Source: Clostridia bacterium | Lineage (GTDB): Bacteria; Bacillota; Clostridia; Oscillospirales; Acutalibacteraceae | DNA length: 47,781 nucleotides | Assembly: GCA_017549285.1 (NCBI GenBank) | Contig: JAFYVE010000040.1 | Span: forward strand, 1 to 47,781 | Reading direction: 5' to 3' | Part shown: one piece after another, positions 1 to 47,781 of the stretch | Layout of the letters: each line of letters opens with the position of its first letter | Numbering within the stretch: the first letter of the stretch is position 1 | The notes under the pieces: model-generated | The model's database searches: none | Seen by the model: the letters and a program-made list of their open reading frames with translations, nothing else | Told to the model about the DNA's origin: nothing | Program-made: the position numbers and the translations under genes

Positions 1-136
1 GACATTTTTGCCAAAGGCAAAAACATCATTTTGTGAAACAAAACATCATTATTCGCTTTAAGCGAATACATCATTTTTTGCCAGCGGCAAAAAACATCAT
101 TCAATAATTTATCGAGCAAAGCTCGATAAATTATTG
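1..136. repeat. Array of five 3-nt-loop hairpins joined by CATCATT
   Basis: Five perfect palindromes follow one another: 5-23 (stem TTTTTGCC, loop AAA), 29-43 (TTTTGT, loop GAA), 50-68 (TATTCGCT, loop TTA), 74-94 (TTTTTTGCC, loop AGC) and 102-136 (16-bp stem, loop AAA). Between consecutive palindromes the same heptamer CATCATT recurs at 24, 44, 69 and 95, its terminal T bases often forming the start of the next stem. Stem sequences differ while pairing is kept and every loop is three bases, so structure rather than sequence is repeated. The array is cut by the left edge of the window. No open reading frame is supported inside it. Confidence 0.9.
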
Positions 137-143
137 TTTATTA

Positions 144-172
144 TTGATTTAATCCATAATTTATGTTAATAT
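144..172 (+). promoter_or_regulatory. Sigma-A-type promoter for the beta-galactosidase gene
   Basis: TTGATT at 144-149 and TAATAT at 167-172 are separated by 17 bases. It lies directly after the long last hairpin of the upstream array and about 30 bases before the gene. Confidence 0.6.
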
Positions 173-203
173 CATTTTATCAAAAAACAAAGCAGGTGTT
201 AAA

Positions 204-3203
204 ATGAAAATACCATCATATCACAAAAGTTTAGATGTTCTGCATTTCGGCACACTGAAACCCAGAGCGTATTTTATTCCTTACGAATGCCTCGATGATG
301 CGCTGTCAGGCGACCGTGAGAAAAGTGCATACTTCACCTCTCTCTGCGGTGACTGGAGTTATAAATTCTATAACAGCTTTGAAGATATTGACTGTGAATT
401 CTGGGCAGACGGTTTTGATTATGCATCACTCCCCGAAGTACCCGTTCCCGGCAACGTTCAGTTATATAAAGATGTTCCTCACGACAAACCTCTTTACTCA
501 AACCTCTATTATCCATTCCCCACAGACCCTCCTCATGTTCCCGATGAGAACCCCTGTTCTGTATTCATCAAGGAATTTTTCGTCAACGACGAAATGGAAG
601 ACAGAGACAACATTCTCACTTTTGAGGGTGTTGCATCCTGCTTCTATCTGTGGATAAACGGTCAGTTTGTGGGCTACAGCCAGATAAGTCACGCAACAAG
701 CGAATTTGACATCACAAAGTTTGTTCACAAGGGCGTAAATAAGATTGCCGTACTTGTTGTAAAATGGTGTGACGGTTCATATCTTGAAGATCAGGATTTC
801 TTCCGTCTTTCAGGTATTTTCAGAGAAGTCTATATCCTTTCAAGAAACAAAATCCGTCTTGAAGATGTTTATGTAAAACAGAGCTTCAATGATGATTTCA
901 CAAGTGCAACTCTTGATATTGATTGTACTCTGAACGGCAAAGCCGACATCAGCTACGGGCTTATCTCTCCTGCAGGTTATGTCATCAACAACGGTGACAG
1001 CTCAAAAAATCACTTTGAAATAAAAATCGACGAGCCTATGATGTGGAATGACGAAAAGCCCCACATCTACACTCTCTTCCTTACAGTTGAGGATGAAATC
1101 ATCCCTCTCCCCATTGCTCTTTGCAAGAAGGAAATCAAAGACAAGAAGCTCCTTATCAACGGTAAGGCTGCAAAGCTTCGTGGTATCAACCGTCACGATT
1201 CAACAGAAAACGGCTATGTTGTGACTGTTGACGATATGAAGAAGGACCTTCTTATGATGAAGAGAGCTAATGTCAACTGTATCAGAACATCACACTACCC
1301 CAACGACCCCCGTTTTGTTGAACTTGCTCAGGCACTCGGCTTCTATCTTGTAAATGAAGCAGATATCGAAACTCACGGTATGGGCTGGAATACAGACGAG
1401 GACTGGGATTGGTTCCGTTGGTCAATGCTTTCTACAATTGACGAATGGGAAGAAGCTTATGTTGACAGAGCAGAGCACCTTTTTGAGCGTGACAAGAATC
1501 AGGGCTGTGTTGTAATGTGGTCTCTCGGTAACGAAAGTGGTTGCGGCAAAAACCACCGTGCAATGAGAAACTACATCAAGTCCCGTGATAACACCGCTAT
1601 TGTTCACTATGAAAACGCACATCTTGAATTCAAGGCAGTTCCCGAGGGAGAGAACTTTGCTGATATTTCCGATGTGGAAAGCCGTATGTATTCAGGCTAC
1701 AACTACACAGAGGGTTATCTCAACAATCCCGATTATAACAAGCCTTTCTACTGGTGTGAATACGTCTGCTCAATGACAACGGGCGACGTTCACGAATACT
1801 GGAAACTTGTTGATAAATACGAAAACCATACAGGCGGCTGTATCTGGGAATGGAGCGACCACGCTGTAAGAATCGACGACGAAAACGGCAATGCACGTTA
1901 CTATTACGGCGGTGACTTCGGCGAATATCCCCACAACGGTATCTGCTGTATTGACGGTCTTGTTTTCCCCGACAGAACACCCCGTCCCGGTTACTACGAT
2001 ATGAAAAAGGTTTATGAGCCTTTCAGAACCGAATACAAGGACGGCACCCTCACAATCAGAAATGTCCGTTATTTCACTCCCCTTTCAGACCTTTATGCAG
2101 ATTGGAAAGTTGAAAGCAACGGTGTTACAATCGTTTCGGGCAGAATCGAGTCCCTTGATATTGCTCCTCAGGACAAGAAGGAATTCCGTCTTACAGGCAT
2201 TGATGAATTCAACTACACAGGCGACACATTCCTGACCGTTATCATAAGACAGAAAAATGACACTCTCTGGGCAGAATCAGGTTATGAAGTAGGTTTCGGA
2301 CAGTTTGAAATCGAAAGCGCAAAGGCAACAGCCGAAAGAGAAGCAAAACTCCTCGTCTGTGAAGAAGGCGACAGATTCGTAAAAATCACAAACGGTGAAA
2401 AAGAATATACATTTGACAAATCATACGGAAGAATTGTTTCAATTACAATCGGCGGTGCTGAAATTCTCGAAAAGCCGTCAGCATTCAAGCTCTGGAGAGC
2501 ACCCAGCTACAATGTAGGCTCATCTCCCGCATGGTATGCAAACAATCTTCATCACGTTACACAGAAGACATATTCGGCAGAAGTTGAAAAGGCAGAAAAT
2601 GCAATCGTAATAAAGACAAGGATTGCTCTCGGCGGACCTGCAAATCCCCCTGTTATCAAGGCTGATGTTGATTATATCTTCAACAACGACGGCACATTCT
2701 CAGTTGAAATTGACGGTAAAATCAAAAAAGAAGCTCCCGTGCTTCCGAGAATCGGAATGGAGCTTATCCTCAAAGAAGAATTTGAAAATATCAGCTATTT
2801 CGGTCTTGGTGAAATCGAAACTTACGTTGACAGACATAAGGCGGCTAAATTCGGCGAATATGCACTTACAGTTACAGAAAACTATGTGCCTTACATCAGA
2901 CCACAGGAAAATTCTTCACACTTCAGGACAAGACGTGTAACACTCAGTAATGAGTCAGGCAATTCAGTTACTGCAACAGGTTGCGGAATACCTGATTTCT
3001 CATTCAATGCTTCACACTTCTCAGCAGAACAGCTCACAGAAAAGAAACATCATTTTGAGCTTGAGAAAGAGCCTTACACAATACTCAATCTTGACGGCAG
3101 ATTCACAGCCCACAGTGAAAATCCCGAATTCAACAATGACGAAAACAACCGTCTTATTGACGAAAAAGAATTCAGATTCGGATTTATGTTTGAAGTGAAA
3201 TAA
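204..3203 (+). CDS. lacZ: Beta-galactosidase, glycoside hydrolase family 2
   Basis: This 999-residue protein has the length and domain order of LacZ-type GH2 enzymes: sugar-binding domain, immunoglobulin-like domain, TIM barrel and a C-terminal beta-galactosidase small-chain-like domain. The acid/base glutamate is E444 in WSLGNESGCG, and the nucleophile is E519 in PFYWCEYVC. There is no signal peptide, so it should cleave lactose or other terminal beta-galactosides in the cytoplasm. The start follows an AGGTG ribosome site. The gene stands alone, with its own promoter at 144-172 and a hairpin terminator at 3215-3240; no permease or regulator is adjacent. Assignment to GH2 is firm; the natural substrate could be another beta-galactoside. 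Confidence 0.95.
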   Translation: MKIPSYHKSLDVLHFGTLKPRAYFIPYECLDDALSGDREKSAYFTSLCGDWSYKFYNSFEDIDCEFWADGFDYASLPEVPVPGNVQLYKDVPHDKPLYSNLYYPFPTDPPHVPDENPCSVFIKEFFVNDEMEDRDNILTFEGVASCFYLWINGQFVGYSQISHATSEFDITKFVHKGVNKIAVLVVKWCDGSYLEDQDFFRLSGIFREVYILSRNKIRLEDVYVKQSFNDDFTSATLDIDCTLNGKADISYGLISPAGYVINNGDSSKNHFEIKIDEPMMWNDEKPHIYTLFLTVEDEIIPLPIALCKKEIKDKKLLINGKAAKLRGINRHDSTENGYVVTVDDMKKDLLMMKRANVNCIRTSHYPNDPRFVELAQALGFYLVNEADIETHGMGWNTDEDWDWFRWSMLSTIDEWEEAYVDRAEHLFERDKNQGCVVMWSLGNESGCGKNHRAMRNYIKSRDNTAIVHYENAHLEFKAVPEGENFADISDVESRMYSGYNYTEGYLNNPDYNKPFYWCEYVCSMTTGDVHEYWKLVDKYENHTGGCIWEWSDHAVRIDDENGNARYYYGGDFGEYPHNGICCIDGLVFPDRTPRPGYYDMKKVYEPFRTEYKDGTLTIRNVRYFTPLSDLYADWKVESNGVTIVSGRIESLDIAPQDKKEFRLTGIDEFNYTGDTFLTVIIRQKNDTLWAESGYEVGFGQFEIESAKATAEREAKLLVCEEGDRFVKITNGEKEYTFDKSYGRIVSITIGGAEILEKPSAFKLWRAPSYNVGSSPAWYANNLHHVTQKTYSAEVEKAENAIVIKTRIALGGPANPPVIKADVDYIFNNDGTFSVEIDGKIKKEAPVLPRIGMELILKEEFENISYFGLGEIETYVDRHKAAKFGEYALTVTENYVPYIRPQENSSHFRTRRVTLSNESGNSVTATGCGIPDFSFNASHFSAEQLTEKKHHFELEKEPYTILNLDGRFTAHSENPEFNNDENNRLIDEKEFRFGFMFEVK

Positions 3204-3244: not shown

Positions 3245-5443
3245 TTATATGATTTCAGAAATGAAAGTTTCAAAGAATATCATAATAACTTTTACAATAT
3301 TTGCAAACTTTGTAAGATCAAGTTCTGAAGTCTTTTCTTCTCCCGATTCGGGTGAAAAATCAACATCATCAAAACTGAGCTCTGCATTATTACCCTTGAA
3401 ACAGAATTCAAGTGAACTTACATTGTTGAGTGTATCATTTTCATAGGATACACCGTAATCAACACCGTAAAGATAAAGAGTTTCAATGTCAATTTCAATT
3501 TCGTGCCATTCACCGTCTGCAGGAATGACAATATTTTCATCCTGAGAAGAATACCATACAACGGTGCCGTTATATAGCTTCAGCTTTTCAAAAACAATTT
3601 CATCAGCTGAGTCGTTACGCACACGGAAAGAAATTTTTCCGTAATTGCCGTAATTCAGTTCTTCACTGAGAAATCTTATAGCCGTAAGACCTTTCTGAAC
3701 GGAAGTCATCGGGCTTATTGAAAAGCTTTCTGCTTCTGCTGAAATTTTCAGTCCATTTTTACCACTGAAAGCAGAATCAGCTTCAATGCTGACATCTGCA
3801 TTTTCTGCAGACCAGGCATCATATTCTCCCGTGTAAATGTCGTCTTTTACAAGAACAATTGTGTCTGTTTCGCAATCTGCCCACTGTTTTTCAAACCAAC
3901 TCTTTGTATTATCAGTCATATTGACTGCAAAGGGGCTGACGGGAAGAGTTTTTTCGCCATTATGTGAAGCGTAAAGATTTGAGTTCTGATTGCCGAGAGC
4001 ATAAGCATAAGTCACACTTACGGGCTCTGCCACTTTACTGCTGAAAACCTCAATTGTGTTTTTGCCTGTTATAACTGCATCAGCCTGAACATAAATATTG
4101 TCTTTACCTGAAACAGCAAAGCCTCTGAGAAGTCCGTCACAGACAAGTCCGTCACCCGTATTGCAGAGTGTGATTGATACTTTTCCGTCTTTTATCTCAT
4201 AACTTTCAACCGTTGCCGTTGTGTAATTGTAATCTGCACCGTAAACAAGAGCTTTTGCACTGAAAGCCATTCTTTCGCCTATCTGCTGCTTGCATTCGGG
4301 ATGAATAGCACCTGCAACGGGAAGATATGTCAGAGGAACATCATAAATTGAAACAACAGCTCTTGAATCAGCTGCTTTTTTCTGCATATCAGTAAAACCG
4401 ATATTCATATCAGAAAGGTCTGTGCTGTTAGGATTATGATACTGATATGCGGCAAGCTGTGTATAAATCACGGGAAGAAGCCCGTCGCAGTCAAAATGTT
4501 CTGAATATGACCTCTGCATAAGGTCAAACATCCACTCATACTGCTCAGGTGACTTGCCTAAAATTACATCAGTTTCACCCTGATACCATATCATACCTGA
4601 GGGTCTGAAATGAGAAAGAGGAGCAATTTTCAGATTAAAATTGCAGGTCATATCATAATAGATACTTCTTTCGGCTTCATTCCAGCTTTCAGCTTCATAA
4701 TATTCTCCGAAATATGTAAGAAGATTTTTTACTTTCTCGTCACCATCAATGGCTTCTCTTGAAATCCACGAAGCAATTGCACTTCCGCCGAGAGGAACAT
4801 TCATAATACCTACGGGCATATCCAGTTCTGCTGTCATTTCTTTTGCAAAGTAATATGCAACAGCACTCACAGAATAAAAAGCTTCATCATTACCTGTCAC
4901 CCAGCAAGCACCTGCTATATCGGTCTGAGGGTCACAGGGAACAAGTTCCGTGCTGCCTTTATATTCATTGACACCGGGGACAAGAAGAACACGGATACTG
5001 TCACCGAGTTTTTCTTTGTTTTCAAACATTTTTGTACCGTTTTTCTCCTGAGAAAGAGGATACTGCATATTACTCTGTCCGCTTGCAAGCCAGAGTTCAC
5101 CGAAAACAACATTTTTGAGTGTTTCAAAAACAAAACCGTTGTTTTTTACAACAATTTCAAATTCTTTGAAACTGCCTGCAGGCGCATCGAATGAAACGGC
5201 AAATGTGCCGTCAGCATTAACTGTCGATTCACCTGATGTAATCAGATTGCTGTTTTCATCATAAAGCTCTGCAGTAACAGTACCGCCCGAAGCCGTGCCT
5301 GATATTACGGTTTCCTTTTCCTGTGCAAACAGCATTCCGTCACCGTAGAATGTATAAAGCTGTGCATCCGTTTTTGCAAAAGCAACGGATGAAACACCAA
5401 AAAGCATCACAACACAAAGGATAGACGATAGAAACGTCTTCAT
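3245..5443 (-). CDS. Secreted sialate O-acetylesterase-like protein with C-terminal hydrophobic tail
   Basis: The 732-residue product begins with a signal peptide (hydrophobic run to about residue 23, ending in AFA). An N-terminal beta domain is followed by the SASA/SGNH-type esterase core, with nucleophile S124 in ASGQSNMQ and the late catalytic histidine in AIHPECKQQ. Residues from about 540 to 710 look like a carbohydrate-binding beta-sandwich. The protein ends in a hydrophobic segment, roughly FANIVKVIMIFFETFISEII, with no arginine/lysine stop and no sortase motif. It lies 30 bp after the UDP-GlcNAc 2-epimerase gene on the same strand, with an AAGGAG site, so it is probably the last gene of the polysaccharide operon. 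It may remove O-acetyl groups from glycans at the cell surface; sialate itself is not proven. Confidence 0.85.
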   Translation of the reverse strand: MKTFLSSILCVVMLFGVSSVAFAKTDAQLYTFYGDGMLFAQEKETVISGTASGGTVTAELYDENSNLITSGESTVNADGTFAVSFDAPAGSFKEFEIVVKNNGFVFETLKNVVFGELWLASGQSNMQYPLSQEKNGTKMFENKEKLGDSIRVLLVPGVNEYKGSTELVPCDPQTDIAGACWVTGNDEAFYSVSAVAYYFAKEMTAELDMPVGIMNVPLGGSAIASWISREAIDGDEKVKNLLTYFGEYYEAESWNEAERSIYYDMTCNFNLKIAPLSHFRPSGMIWYQGETDVILGKSPEQYEWMFDLMQRSYSEHFDCDGLLPVIYTQLAAYQYHNPNSTDLSDMNIGFTDMQKKAADSRAVVSIYDVPLTYLPVAGAIHPECKQQIGERMAFSAKALVYGADYNYTTATVESYEIKDGKVSITLCNTGDGLVCDGLLRGFAVSGKDNIYVQADAVITGKNTIEVFSSKVAEPVSVTYAYALGNQNSNLYASHNGEKTLPVSPFAVNMTDNTKSWFEKQWADCETDTIVLVKDDIYTGEYDAWSAENADVSIEADSAFSGKNGLKISAEAESFSISPMTSVQKGLTAIRFLSEELNYGNYGKISFRVRNDSADEIVFEKLKLYNGTVVWYSSQDENIVIPADGEWHEIEIDIETLYLYGVDYGVSYENDTLNNVSSLEFCFKGNNAELSFDDVDFSPESGEEKTSELDLTKFANIVKVIMIFFETFISEII

Positions 5444-5473: not shown

Positions 5474-6589
5474 TTAAATTTCAATTTCTTCTGTTTTGCC
5501 GAATTCAAGAATATCTGCAATTCTTGAGCTTGCCTTTCCGTCACCGTAAGGGTTGGAAGCCTTGCTCATTTTTTCATATTCTGTCTTGTCTTCAAGAAGT
5601 GTCTTGAATGTATTGTAGATAAATTCTTCATCAGTACCTACAAGCTTGAGTGTACCTGCCTTGATACCTTCAGGACGCTCTGTTGTGTCACGCATAACGA
5701 GAACAGGTTTACCAAGAGAGGGAGCTTCTTCCTGAACGCCGCCGCTGTCTGTAAGAATCAGATATGAACGTGCAAGGAAATTATGAAAATCAAGCACATC
5801 AAGGGGTTCAATGATATGAACTCTGTTGTCATCACCGAAAACTTCCTTTGCGGCTTCACGGACAACAGGATTCATATGAATGGGGTAAATTACCTTTATA
5901 TCGGGAGTTTCGTCAATAATTCTCTTGATTGCTCTGAACATATGACGCATAGGTTCACCGAGATTCTCTCTTCTGTGGGCTGTGAGCATAATAAGCCTTG
6001 AGTCACTTGCCCATTCAAGCTCGGGATGAGTATAATCATCACGTACAGTTGTCTTGAGCGCATCAATTGCGGTGTTACCTGTGATATAGATTGATTCTGC
6101 ATCCTTACCTTCTTTGAGAAGGTTGTCCTTTGACATCTGTGTGGGAGCAAAATTATATTTTGAAATGATACTTACAGCCTGACGGTTGAATTCTTCGGGA
6201 TAGGGAGAATAAATATTGTATGTACGAAGACCTGCTTCAACATGACCGATGGGAATCTGCATATAGAAACACGCAAGTGCTGTTACGAATGTTGTTGAAG
6301 TGTCACCGTGAACAAGAACAACATCGGGCTTCACTTCTTCAAGCACACCCTTTATACCCATCAGGATATTTGTTGTGATATCAAAAAGTGTCTGTCTGTC
6401 CTTCATAATTGAAAGATCATAATCGGGTACAACACCGAATGTGTCAAGAACAGCATCAAGCATCTGTCTGTGCTGACCTGTTACGCATACGACTGTTTTA
6501 AGATTTTCTCTTTTTTTGAGTTCAAGTACAAGAGGACACATTTTGATAGCCTCAGGTCTTGTGCCGAATACAAGCATTACTGTTTTCAT
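5474..6589 (-). CDS. wecB: UDP-N-acetylglucosamine 2-epimerase (non-hydrolysing)
   Basis: A 371-residue cytoplasmic enzyme that interconverts UDP-GlcNAc and UDP-ManNAc. Family signatures include GTRPEAIKMCP at the N-terminus, HVEAGLRTYN in the middle, and the UDP-binding stretch TDSGGVQEEAPSLGKP followed by TTERPEG. The start used is the ATG at 6589, preceded by AAAGGTGG at good spacing; a GTG nine bases upstream lies inside that site. It follows the UDP-ManNAc dehydrogenase gene by 12 bp, so the pair should make UDP-ManNAcA for the polysaccharide exported by the ABC transporter at the operon head. The name mnaA would be equally valid. Confidence 0.96.
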   Translation of the reverse strand: MKTVMLVFGTRPEAIKMCPLVLELKKRENLKTVVCVTGQHRQMLDAVLDTFGVVPDYDLSIMKDRQTLFDITTNILMGIKGVLEEVKPDVVLVHGDTSTTFVTALACFYMQIPIGHVEAGLRTYNIYSPYPEEFNRQAVSIISKYNFAPTQMSKDNLLKEGKDAESIYITGNTAIDALKTTVRDDYTHPELEWASDSRLIMLTAHRRENLGEPMRHMFRAIKRIIDETPDIKVIYPIHMNPVVREAAKEVFGDDNRVHIIEPLDVLDFHNFLARSYLILTDSGGVQEEAPSLGKPVLVMRDTTERPEGIKAGTLKLVGTDEEFIYNTFKTLLEDKTEYEKMSKASNPYGDGKASSRIADILEFGKTEEIEI

Positions 6590-33835: not shown

Positions 33836-33855
33836 ATAATCAACTCGCATATCAG

Positions 33856-33882
33856 AATTTGTCGAGGTGGCCCCGACAAATT
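33856..33882 (-). promoter_or_regulatory. Inverted repeat in the leader of the lipoprotein gene
   Basis: AATTTGTCG (33856-33864) is mirrored by CGACAAATT (33874-33882); the inner bases extend pairing to a 3-nt loop with one mismatch. It lies between the predicted promoter and the start codon, so it could be an operator or a leader hairpin. The neighbouring 13-mer TCAGAATTTGTCG recurs near 47530. Confidence 0.55.
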
Positions 33883-33894
33883 AATGTTTATTCT

Positions 33895-47512: not shown

Positions 47513-47559
47513 TGTATCACTCCTGTAAATCAGAATTTGTCGGGATGATTTTAATAATG

Positions 47560-47731
47560 TGTAGGGACCGATGCCCACATCGGTCCGCATTTGTCGAAGA
47601 CAAATCGGAAATCTCTGATTTCCGCATAACGAACAATTTAATTCATTAAGATTGTTGCAATAGAACGATTTTCAATCGTTATTGCTCCATTACATTACGC
47701 AATCGGACCGATGTGGGCATCGGTCCCTACA
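47560..47731. repeat. Palindrome-rich element bounded by 27-bp inverted repeats
   Basis: The 27 bases at 47560-47586 are the exact reverse complement of 47705-47731; each copy is itself a hairpin (GACCGATG / CATCGGTC around a 4-nt loop). The 118 bases between contain hairpins at 47589-47605 (ATTTGTC, loop GAA), 47606-47624 (CGGAAATC, loop TCT), about 47632-47656 (AACAAT/ATTGTT), and 47657-47685 (GCAATA...TATTGC, loop TTC). No frame is supported. After it, 47732-47781 is an A/T-rich stretch with two copies of ATTGTACATT and no gene. Confidence 0.88.
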
Positions 47732-47781
47732 TAATTTGTTTTTCCTGAAATCATTGTACATTGTAAATTGTACATTATTCA

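Follow-up and report, generated by a model that had tools for sequence, protein, structure and literature searches.

A hairpin array at a contig end of a Clostridia genome is probably half of a foldback mobile DNA element related to the Rfam Gut-1 class

The first 141 positions of the window, the 47,781-nucleotide stretch of Clostridia DNA analysed here, hold an array of short hairpins that probably represents the right half of a mobile DNA element of the foldback (MITE-like) kind, non-autonomous and probably steered to terminator hairpins on insertion. As judged from sequence, the class to which this element belongs takes in Gut-1 (RF01706), which Rfam files as an sRNA gene, and about half of the related genomes carry members of the class. 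A broader reading, proposed tentatively and with slightly less than even confidence, is that, rather than a dedicated RNA, Gut-1 may be one piece of an as yet undescribed kind of mobile DNA that is widespread in gut Clostridia. Members of such a class would be inverted hairpin combs built on a conserved heptamer linker, would target the hairpins of intrinsic terminators, entering at their foot or in their loop and frequently behind tRNA or tmRNA genes, and would depend for copying on a system other than RAYT/Y1 or any transposase so far assigned, with linkers that drift by lineage (from ATTTCAC through ATATCAC to CATCATT) and halves that can be swapped between lineages.

The window begins at the first base of contig C37 in a genome of 56 contigs and 2.3 Mb (G000), and the element is cut on the left by the contig start. 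What is present at positions 1–141 (forward strand, as are all window features given below) is the right half of a dispersed foldback element of ~320 bp, and consists of five perfect hairpins with 3-nt loops and stems of at least 6 bp, together with four CATCATT linkers that overlap the adjoining stems by at most 2 bases. Hairpin 1 (TTTTTGCC-AAA-GGCAAAAA, 8 bp) lies at 5–23 and is followed at 24–30 by a linker that aligns with the ATATCAC and ATTTCAT linkers of sister arrays. Hairpin 2 (TTTTGT-GAA-ACAAAA, 6 bp, with one covarying pair) lies at 29–43, with a linker at 44–50; hairpin 3 (8 bp and a 3-nt loop, alternatively drawn with a 1-nt loop; three covarying pairs) at 50–68, with a linker at 69–75; and hairpin 4 (9 bp) at 74–94, with a linker at 95–101, its perfect stem being replaced in aligned relatives by stems such as ATTTTCC/GGAAAAT and TCGCACC/GGTGCGA. 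Hairpin 5, at 102–136, is the terminal hairpin, a 16-bp stem formed by the right terminal repeat and its inverse and containing one covarying pair. The right terminal repeat itself, CGATAAATTATTGTTT, occupies 124–139, and the matches of near-full copies end at query positions 139–152.

The initial annotation had described five perfect hairpins with three-base loops and CATCATT between them, and this description is confirmed by the sequence and by shuffling: 2000 dinucleotide shuffles of the same 141 bases hold a mean of 0.136 such hairpins and a maximum of 2, compared with the five observed, and no other 141-bp stretch that starts at one of the 44 hairpins of this kind across the whole window reaches 5. 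The further statement that the stems differ holds for the most part; hairpins 1 and 4 have a TTTGCC/GGCAAA core in common, so the stems are not all unrelated. Likewise, an extent of 1–136 is correct for the array, and the element is larger, with its right edge at ~141 and with ~180 bp more to the left in complete copies. Chance or local duplication is ruled out by the shuffles and by the dispersed copies. A CRISPR array or simple satellite, from which the array had already been set apart, is also ruled out, as the variable parts are perfect covarying palindromes, unlike the unique spacers that separate the direct repeats of a CRISPR array. Weak matches to Rfam families in the window (AfaR and others, E 0.14–9.4) were attributed to chance. 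The ATG of a LacZ-type gene (NCBIfam, below the curated cut-off), which the initial annotation suggested the array might help to regulate, is found at 204, ~62 bp past the element end; the other array copies examined, however, adjoin unrelated sequence.

A search of the same genome with window positions 1–300 returned 11 further copies of about 1–141, at 93–100% identity, plus shorter pieces. Eleven of the 12 copies, the window's included, meet a contig end within the element or at its left edge, as would be expected if the assembly breaks inside a repeat, and the sole copy among the 12 with both flanks lies on contig C7 at 5552–5689. In the complete element, represented by copies on C7 and C3, a left terminal hairpin (AATCAGAATTTATCG..CGATAAATTCTG) precedes a left half of hairpins with AATGATG-type linkers, the reverse complement of CATCATT; these are followed by a conserved core (GGAAGGGC..GCCCTTACCC..TTCAAGCCGC..GCGGCTTCC, drawn with loops in the two copies as GGAAGGGC-loop-GCCCTTACCCATTTTAAAATTCAAGCCGC-loop-GCGGCTTCC), then by the CATCATT-linked hairpins, and lastly by the right terminal hairpin ending in CGATAAATTATTGTTT. 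The copies are near-identical and have fixed ends, and their flanks differ from one another. The 322-base single strand that holds the element has a fold z of −14.3 with DNA parameters and −12.4 with RNA parameters relative to shuffles, and in the predicted fold the linkers of the two halves pair with each other and the hairpins protrude on both sides. Pairing of the halves is not obligatory, however, since chimeric elements of the genus member G005 (L058–L060 and L062) carry left linkers of AATGATG type and right linkers of ATATATCGC type in four copies.

At no more than one mismatch, the genome contains 109 matches to the left terminal repeat and 102 to the right (positions being those of the first 100 places for each end), and 0 to the reversed patterns used as controls. 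The right repeat has 82–141 matches in 5 of the 11 genus members (G000, G004, G005, G007, and G009), 0 or 1 in the other six, and 0–3 in the remaining genomes of the 118 in total, with control counts of 0–3. In the DNA examined, 55 distinct left–right end pairs lie 36–402 bp apart at no more than 2 mismatches. The 49 classified G000 pairs, which leave out array copies cut by contig ends, comprise 28 with GTAG-REP interiors, 9 with other simple palindromes, 8 minimal elements of one hairpin, 3 hairpin arrays, and 1 unclassified. The window also holds a minimal 40-bp element at 33850–33889, found by the end-pair search, in which the left and right terminal repeats form one hairpin, and, at 47528–47781, an element detected by its match to the left terminal repeat, which it shares, whose interior is of the GTAG-REP (REPIN-like) type and which is cut by the contig end. 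Both ends of the window's contig lie in elements with these terminal repeats. In L044, L076, L088, L097, and L043, the same ends enclose a TTAGGAGT palindrome around a GGAAG core like the core of the array elements, and further elements with these ends hold ACAATGT palindromes. Named MAGs with the terminal hairpin are the ruminant-gut Clostridia RGIG4183, RGIG4537, and RGIG6514, Ruminococcaceae UBA5904, and Oscillospiraceae SUG254, a list that may lack records close to the window's own.

Target-site duplications were sought in 54 elements, at lengths of 2, 3, 4, 5, 8, and 9 and boundary shifts of −8 to +3 on each side (criterion, z 3.5 and at least 4 matches), and none was detected; no autonomous relative, sought as an end pair 450–3500 bp apart with at most 1 mismatch, was found in 788 kb of DNA examined. 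At two sites, G004 has similar ends in the same place as G000 and another interior between them, which suggests that interiors are exchanged or sites reused. L153 and L154 of G004 and L038 of G000 have a common insertion site in two species, with ends alike and interiors different. At two loci compared, no relative offered a clean empty site, the place being taken by a remnant or by other elements or bordered by flanks that have diverged; L229 and L206 likewise gave no clean comparison. The negative results for duplication, autonomous relative, and empty site were counted against mobility.

The relationship to Gut-1 is provided by sister arrays. An array on contig C8 has 74% BLAST identity to the window array (E 5e-11) and the linker ATATCAC, and the arrays of G009 have the linker ATTTCAT. 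The C8 array (in L039) matches Gut-1 at 51.2 bits, against a gathering threshold of 50, and an element of G009 (L065) matches it at 62.8 and 52.7 bits in opposite orientations, once in each half. Positions 1–300 of the window gave no match to the Gut-1 model even at E 10. By sequence comparison, the window array is therefore related to Gut-1 through the chain from window to C8 array to Gut-1 and is not a member by score; it has the Gut-1 layout, namely at least three short hairpins with a constant linker between them. This chain-only link was counted against the reading of a mobile Gut-1 class. The initial annotation knew of no named family for such arrays, a view that is superseded by the sister arrays being Gut-1, and the presence in relatives of arrays with other stems, and other linkers, means that the pattern is not unique to this locus. 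A T-box leader candidate (L039, 110–370, minus strand; 92.4 bits, threshold 93) lies on the same contig as the C8 array.

Gut-1 matches (E ≤ 0.001, strict filters) occur in 95 of 198 related genomes, in 75 of them above the cut-off, and among 14 control genomes only E. coli has a match, which is below the cut-off. The copy number differs widely among relatives and reaches at least 22 matches per genome (22 candidates scored). Order-wide, Gut-1 elements have the two inverted halves of the window element: hairpins with GTGAAAT-type linkers are followed within 230 bp by an inverted half, with three or more linkers of ATTTCAC type, in 43 of 45 loci, compared with 202 of 900 shuffled controls, in a test that is lax on linkers and for which 3 of 48 loci were too short to judge. 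Another genus member, G003, has 21 Gut-1 matches and no ATTGTTT end, which indicates that the comb of hairpins does not depend on those ends. Three tandem Gut-1 matches spaced by ~290 bp lie beside a tRNA-Leu in L194 (contig C43 of G119). Carriage as phage or plasmid cargo was considered and rejected, as blastn searches found no phage sequence matching the Gut-1 element of L184 and no plasmid sequence matching the complete G000 element. At least 80 loci on viral contigs have the linker pattern; among those listed, 5 pass a two-hairpin filter, and three of these (L276, L321, and L335) resemble real arrays by eye.

The claim that structure and linker are kept while stem sequences change is borne out by alignments of the sister arrays, in which compensatory changes are present. 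In ten aligned right halves, chosen from more and counted without hairpin 4 (gapped alignment), 98.7% of pair cells are standard pairs, compared with 33–46% when one arm is slid, and neither the 18 cells in which both partners are changed nor the covariation score of 0.168 was reached by any of 500 shuffles, which related sequences exceed easily; the five pairs changed on both sides were reached by 84 of 500 shuffles, which was counted against the signal. Among the Gut-1 loci, 47 of 48 could be parsed, with 15, 22, and 20 distinct best stems at hairpins 1, 2, and 3, and with perfect stems of 4 bp or more at these hairpins in 45, 39, and 34 of the 47 arrays. Such compensatory changes, and the strong fold obtained with RNA parameters, would also be expected of a structured ncRNA, as in Rfam's filing, in which the array would be transcribed and its single-stranded linkers would serve for protein binding or for pairing to targets; transcripts of the opposite strand could then be ended by the terminator palindrome that lies at the foot of the array. 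Gut-1 is a predicted ncRNA in Weinberg et al. (2010; PMC2864571), and no other paper naming Gut-1 or RF01706 was found among the matches listed in the literature searched.

The ncRNA explanation is nevertheless unlikely. G-U pairs make up 2.0% and 2.9% of pairs on the two strands, compared with 9.2% in 27 tRNAs treated alike, and this scarcity is better fitted by palindromic DNA than by RNA under selection; the test is not sharp, since reverse-complemented tRNAs, which are functionless, still have 6.6%, and template-switch repair of palindromes could be an alternative source of the same signal. The pair types are no more numerous than in any of 500 shuffles, a strict-consensus search of the 651 bases surrounding one complete copy found no sigma-70-like promoter, the two halves are inverted copies of each other, and the wide variation in copy number among relatives also argues against a dedicated RNA. 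A strand bias of wobble pairs was 14 versus 3 when oriented by linkers, yet 31 versus 20 when based on folds, and is not claimed.

The array had also been proposed as a substrate of a REP-type (RAYT/Y1) transposase, and a REPIN–RAYT pair does seem to be present in this genome, because GTAG-tagged REPs flank a RAYT-like gene and fill 28 of the 49 end-pair elements. The gene is divergent (L180 on contig C8, 3541–4041, minus strand, 166 aa), with REPs on both sides at about 3350–3530 and 4060–4215; the nearest NCBIfam of its product is NF047646, at 54.7 bits (curated cut-off 80), and a G004 homologue with 43% identity scores 50.6 bits. Among 15 genomes searched, relatives were found in G000, G004, G108 (three matches), G005 (with a stop), and G002 (partial). 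These genes, the GTAG REPs, and the lack of a detected target duplication, which Y1 transposition is not expected to produce, are what would be seen if REPIN-like elements were moved by RAYT (TnpA_REP) or another Y1 transposase recognising a hairpin and its foot. For the array, this explanation is distinctly improbable. The window array has no GTAG or CGTC foot in its sequence, whereas GTAG feet occur in the REPIN interiors of other elements with these ends; it is the GTAG-tagged REPs, not the array, that flank the RAYT-like gene, and the nearest array on the same contig is ~14.5 kb off. At E 0.01, a RAYT homologue was not found in 10 of the 15 genomes, including G007 and G009, which bear the element ends, and G003, G059, G039, and G047, which have at least 20 Gut-1 matches each; G009 has another Y1 fragment, of IS200 type. 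In 118 genomes, taken as a subset of the 198 searched for Gut-1 and with unlisted genomes counted as negative, Y1 presence is independent of Gut-1 presence (23 with both, 31 with Gut-1 only, 27 with Y1 only, 37 with neither; odds ratio 1.02, p 1.0), and the proposed role as a substrate of a REP-type transposase is left unsupported. Insertion sequences reportedly target REP palindromes, according to the title of one paper.

The preferred reading, that of a mobile DNA element directed to terminators, draws on the place of insertion. The array junction is fixed, with GCTTTTTT or, when the T-tract is missing, CACTGAG followed directly by CAACGAAAT. Among 46 loci (48 non-redundant loci, of which 2 were too near a contig end), a perfect hairpin of 7 bp or more ends no further than 12 nt from the array start in 38, a run of at least 4 T is present there in 34, and both are in 30, compared with 2.1%, 6.4%, and 0.24%, respectively, of 1256 control positions drawn from these loci without excluding coding DNA; the 8 arrays without an upstream hairpin by this test were counted against the mobile reading. 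In the best-scoring locus of each of 30 genomes, which is a biased choice, the 3′ end of a tRNA or tmRNA gene faces the array within 45 bp in 15 and within about 310 bp in 5 more, a tRNA 5′ end faces it in 1, and no tRNA is nearby in 9. In 18 further loci, hand-chosen from five genomes, a tRNA gene is adjacent in 4, ~270 bp off in 1, and not found near the array start in 13.

At the orthologous tRNA-Leu(tag), G059 has a terminator and an array, and its congener G113 has a different terminator and no array; as the two terminators are unlike, the terminator could belong to the element. Four copies in G108 carry homologous, covarying versions of the terminator hairpin (hairpin 0), and, as judged by eye, two of the four (L223 and L226) sit inside a terminator-like hairpin, with one of its arms on either side. 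Two similar ideas were rejected for the clade elements: flanks forming one hairpin around the element have a joined-flank energy of −8.4 kcal/mol, no lower than the −8.7 kcal/mol of mispaired flanks, and a terminator stands beside 25 of 54 left flanks, compared with 8.2% of 3000 random positions, yet also on the wrong strand in 17 of 54, and beside 9 of 54 right flanks. In L237 (G000) and L235 (G007), part of the 3′ end of tRNA-Leu(cag) recurs ~150–200 bp downstream, a pattern of the kind that integration at tRNA genes leaves behind.

A position after tRNA or tmRNA terminators in half of the best loci, together with the cruciform-prone sequence, would also suit BIME-like boundary or topology elements, not mobile as such and selected at the 3′ ends of tRNA genes and other highly transcribed units. 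This is very improbable, given that 103 of the 198 genomes have no Gut-1 match (E 0.001, strict filters), that no array is present at the orthologous tRNA locus in G113, that near-identical copies with fixed ends occur in G000, and that the array start has no tRNA gene near it in 13 of the 18 further loci. Mobilisation of the array as a non-autonomous passenger by group IIC intron-type machinery is scarcely credible: it would account for a like target preference, with the array start beside a terminator-like hairpin, but no group II intron family of Rfam matched at gathering score in ten loci, and the array ends are presumably unlike intron ends.

If the array is half of a mobile foldback DNA element, as preferred here, its copies would be made by an enzyme acting in trans, and the repeated units of linker and hairpin may serve as binding or assembly sites of this enzyme on extruded or single-stranded DNA. 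Insertion would be steered to intrinsic-terminator hairpins, which would keep the element out of genes, and the hairpins would act as DNA structure, not as dedicated RNA. A listed Rfam RNA class would then be re-read as mobile DNA, with consequences for the automatic annotation of many gut genomes; the element class would make it possible to test structure-directed insertion at terminators of transcription, the moving enzyme would become a defined search target, and the element repeat would explain the break of this MAG assembly at the array.

Among known systems, the Gut-1 RNA has the same tandem short hairpins and constant linker, its linkers align with those described here (ATTTCAC, ATTTCAT, ATATCAC, and ACATCAT), and sister elements score above its threshold, one of them in both halves. 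It differs in being described as a ncRNA motif of 77 positions, which corresponds here to a three-hairpin slice of an inverted, dispersed DNA element of ~300 bp, and the window's own array, with its diverged linker, falls outside the model. REPs and REPINs with RAYT are, like the array elements, inverted palindromic repeats, short and non-autonomous, whose stems show compensatory changes (for REPINs, PMC3116915). Neither a target duplication was seen in the array elements, a feature they have in common with that system, nor a GTAG/CGTC foot or a RAYT link, in which they differ from it, and a complete element holds about ten different hairpins, whereas a REPIN has two conserved REPs. Group IIC introns insert at intrinsic terminators (PMC4424553), the position also held by the arrays with both hairpin and T-run (30 of 46, at least 7 bp and at least 4 T); unlike these introns, the array element has no intron ribozyme match, and its ~320 bp encode no protein. 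MITEs, like the elements described here, are short, non-coding, and multi-copy, with terminal inverted repeats and fixed ends. In contrast to MITEs, the array element was found with neither a target-site duplication nor a parent transposon, its interior is an inverted hairpin comb, and its ends are themselves hairpins.
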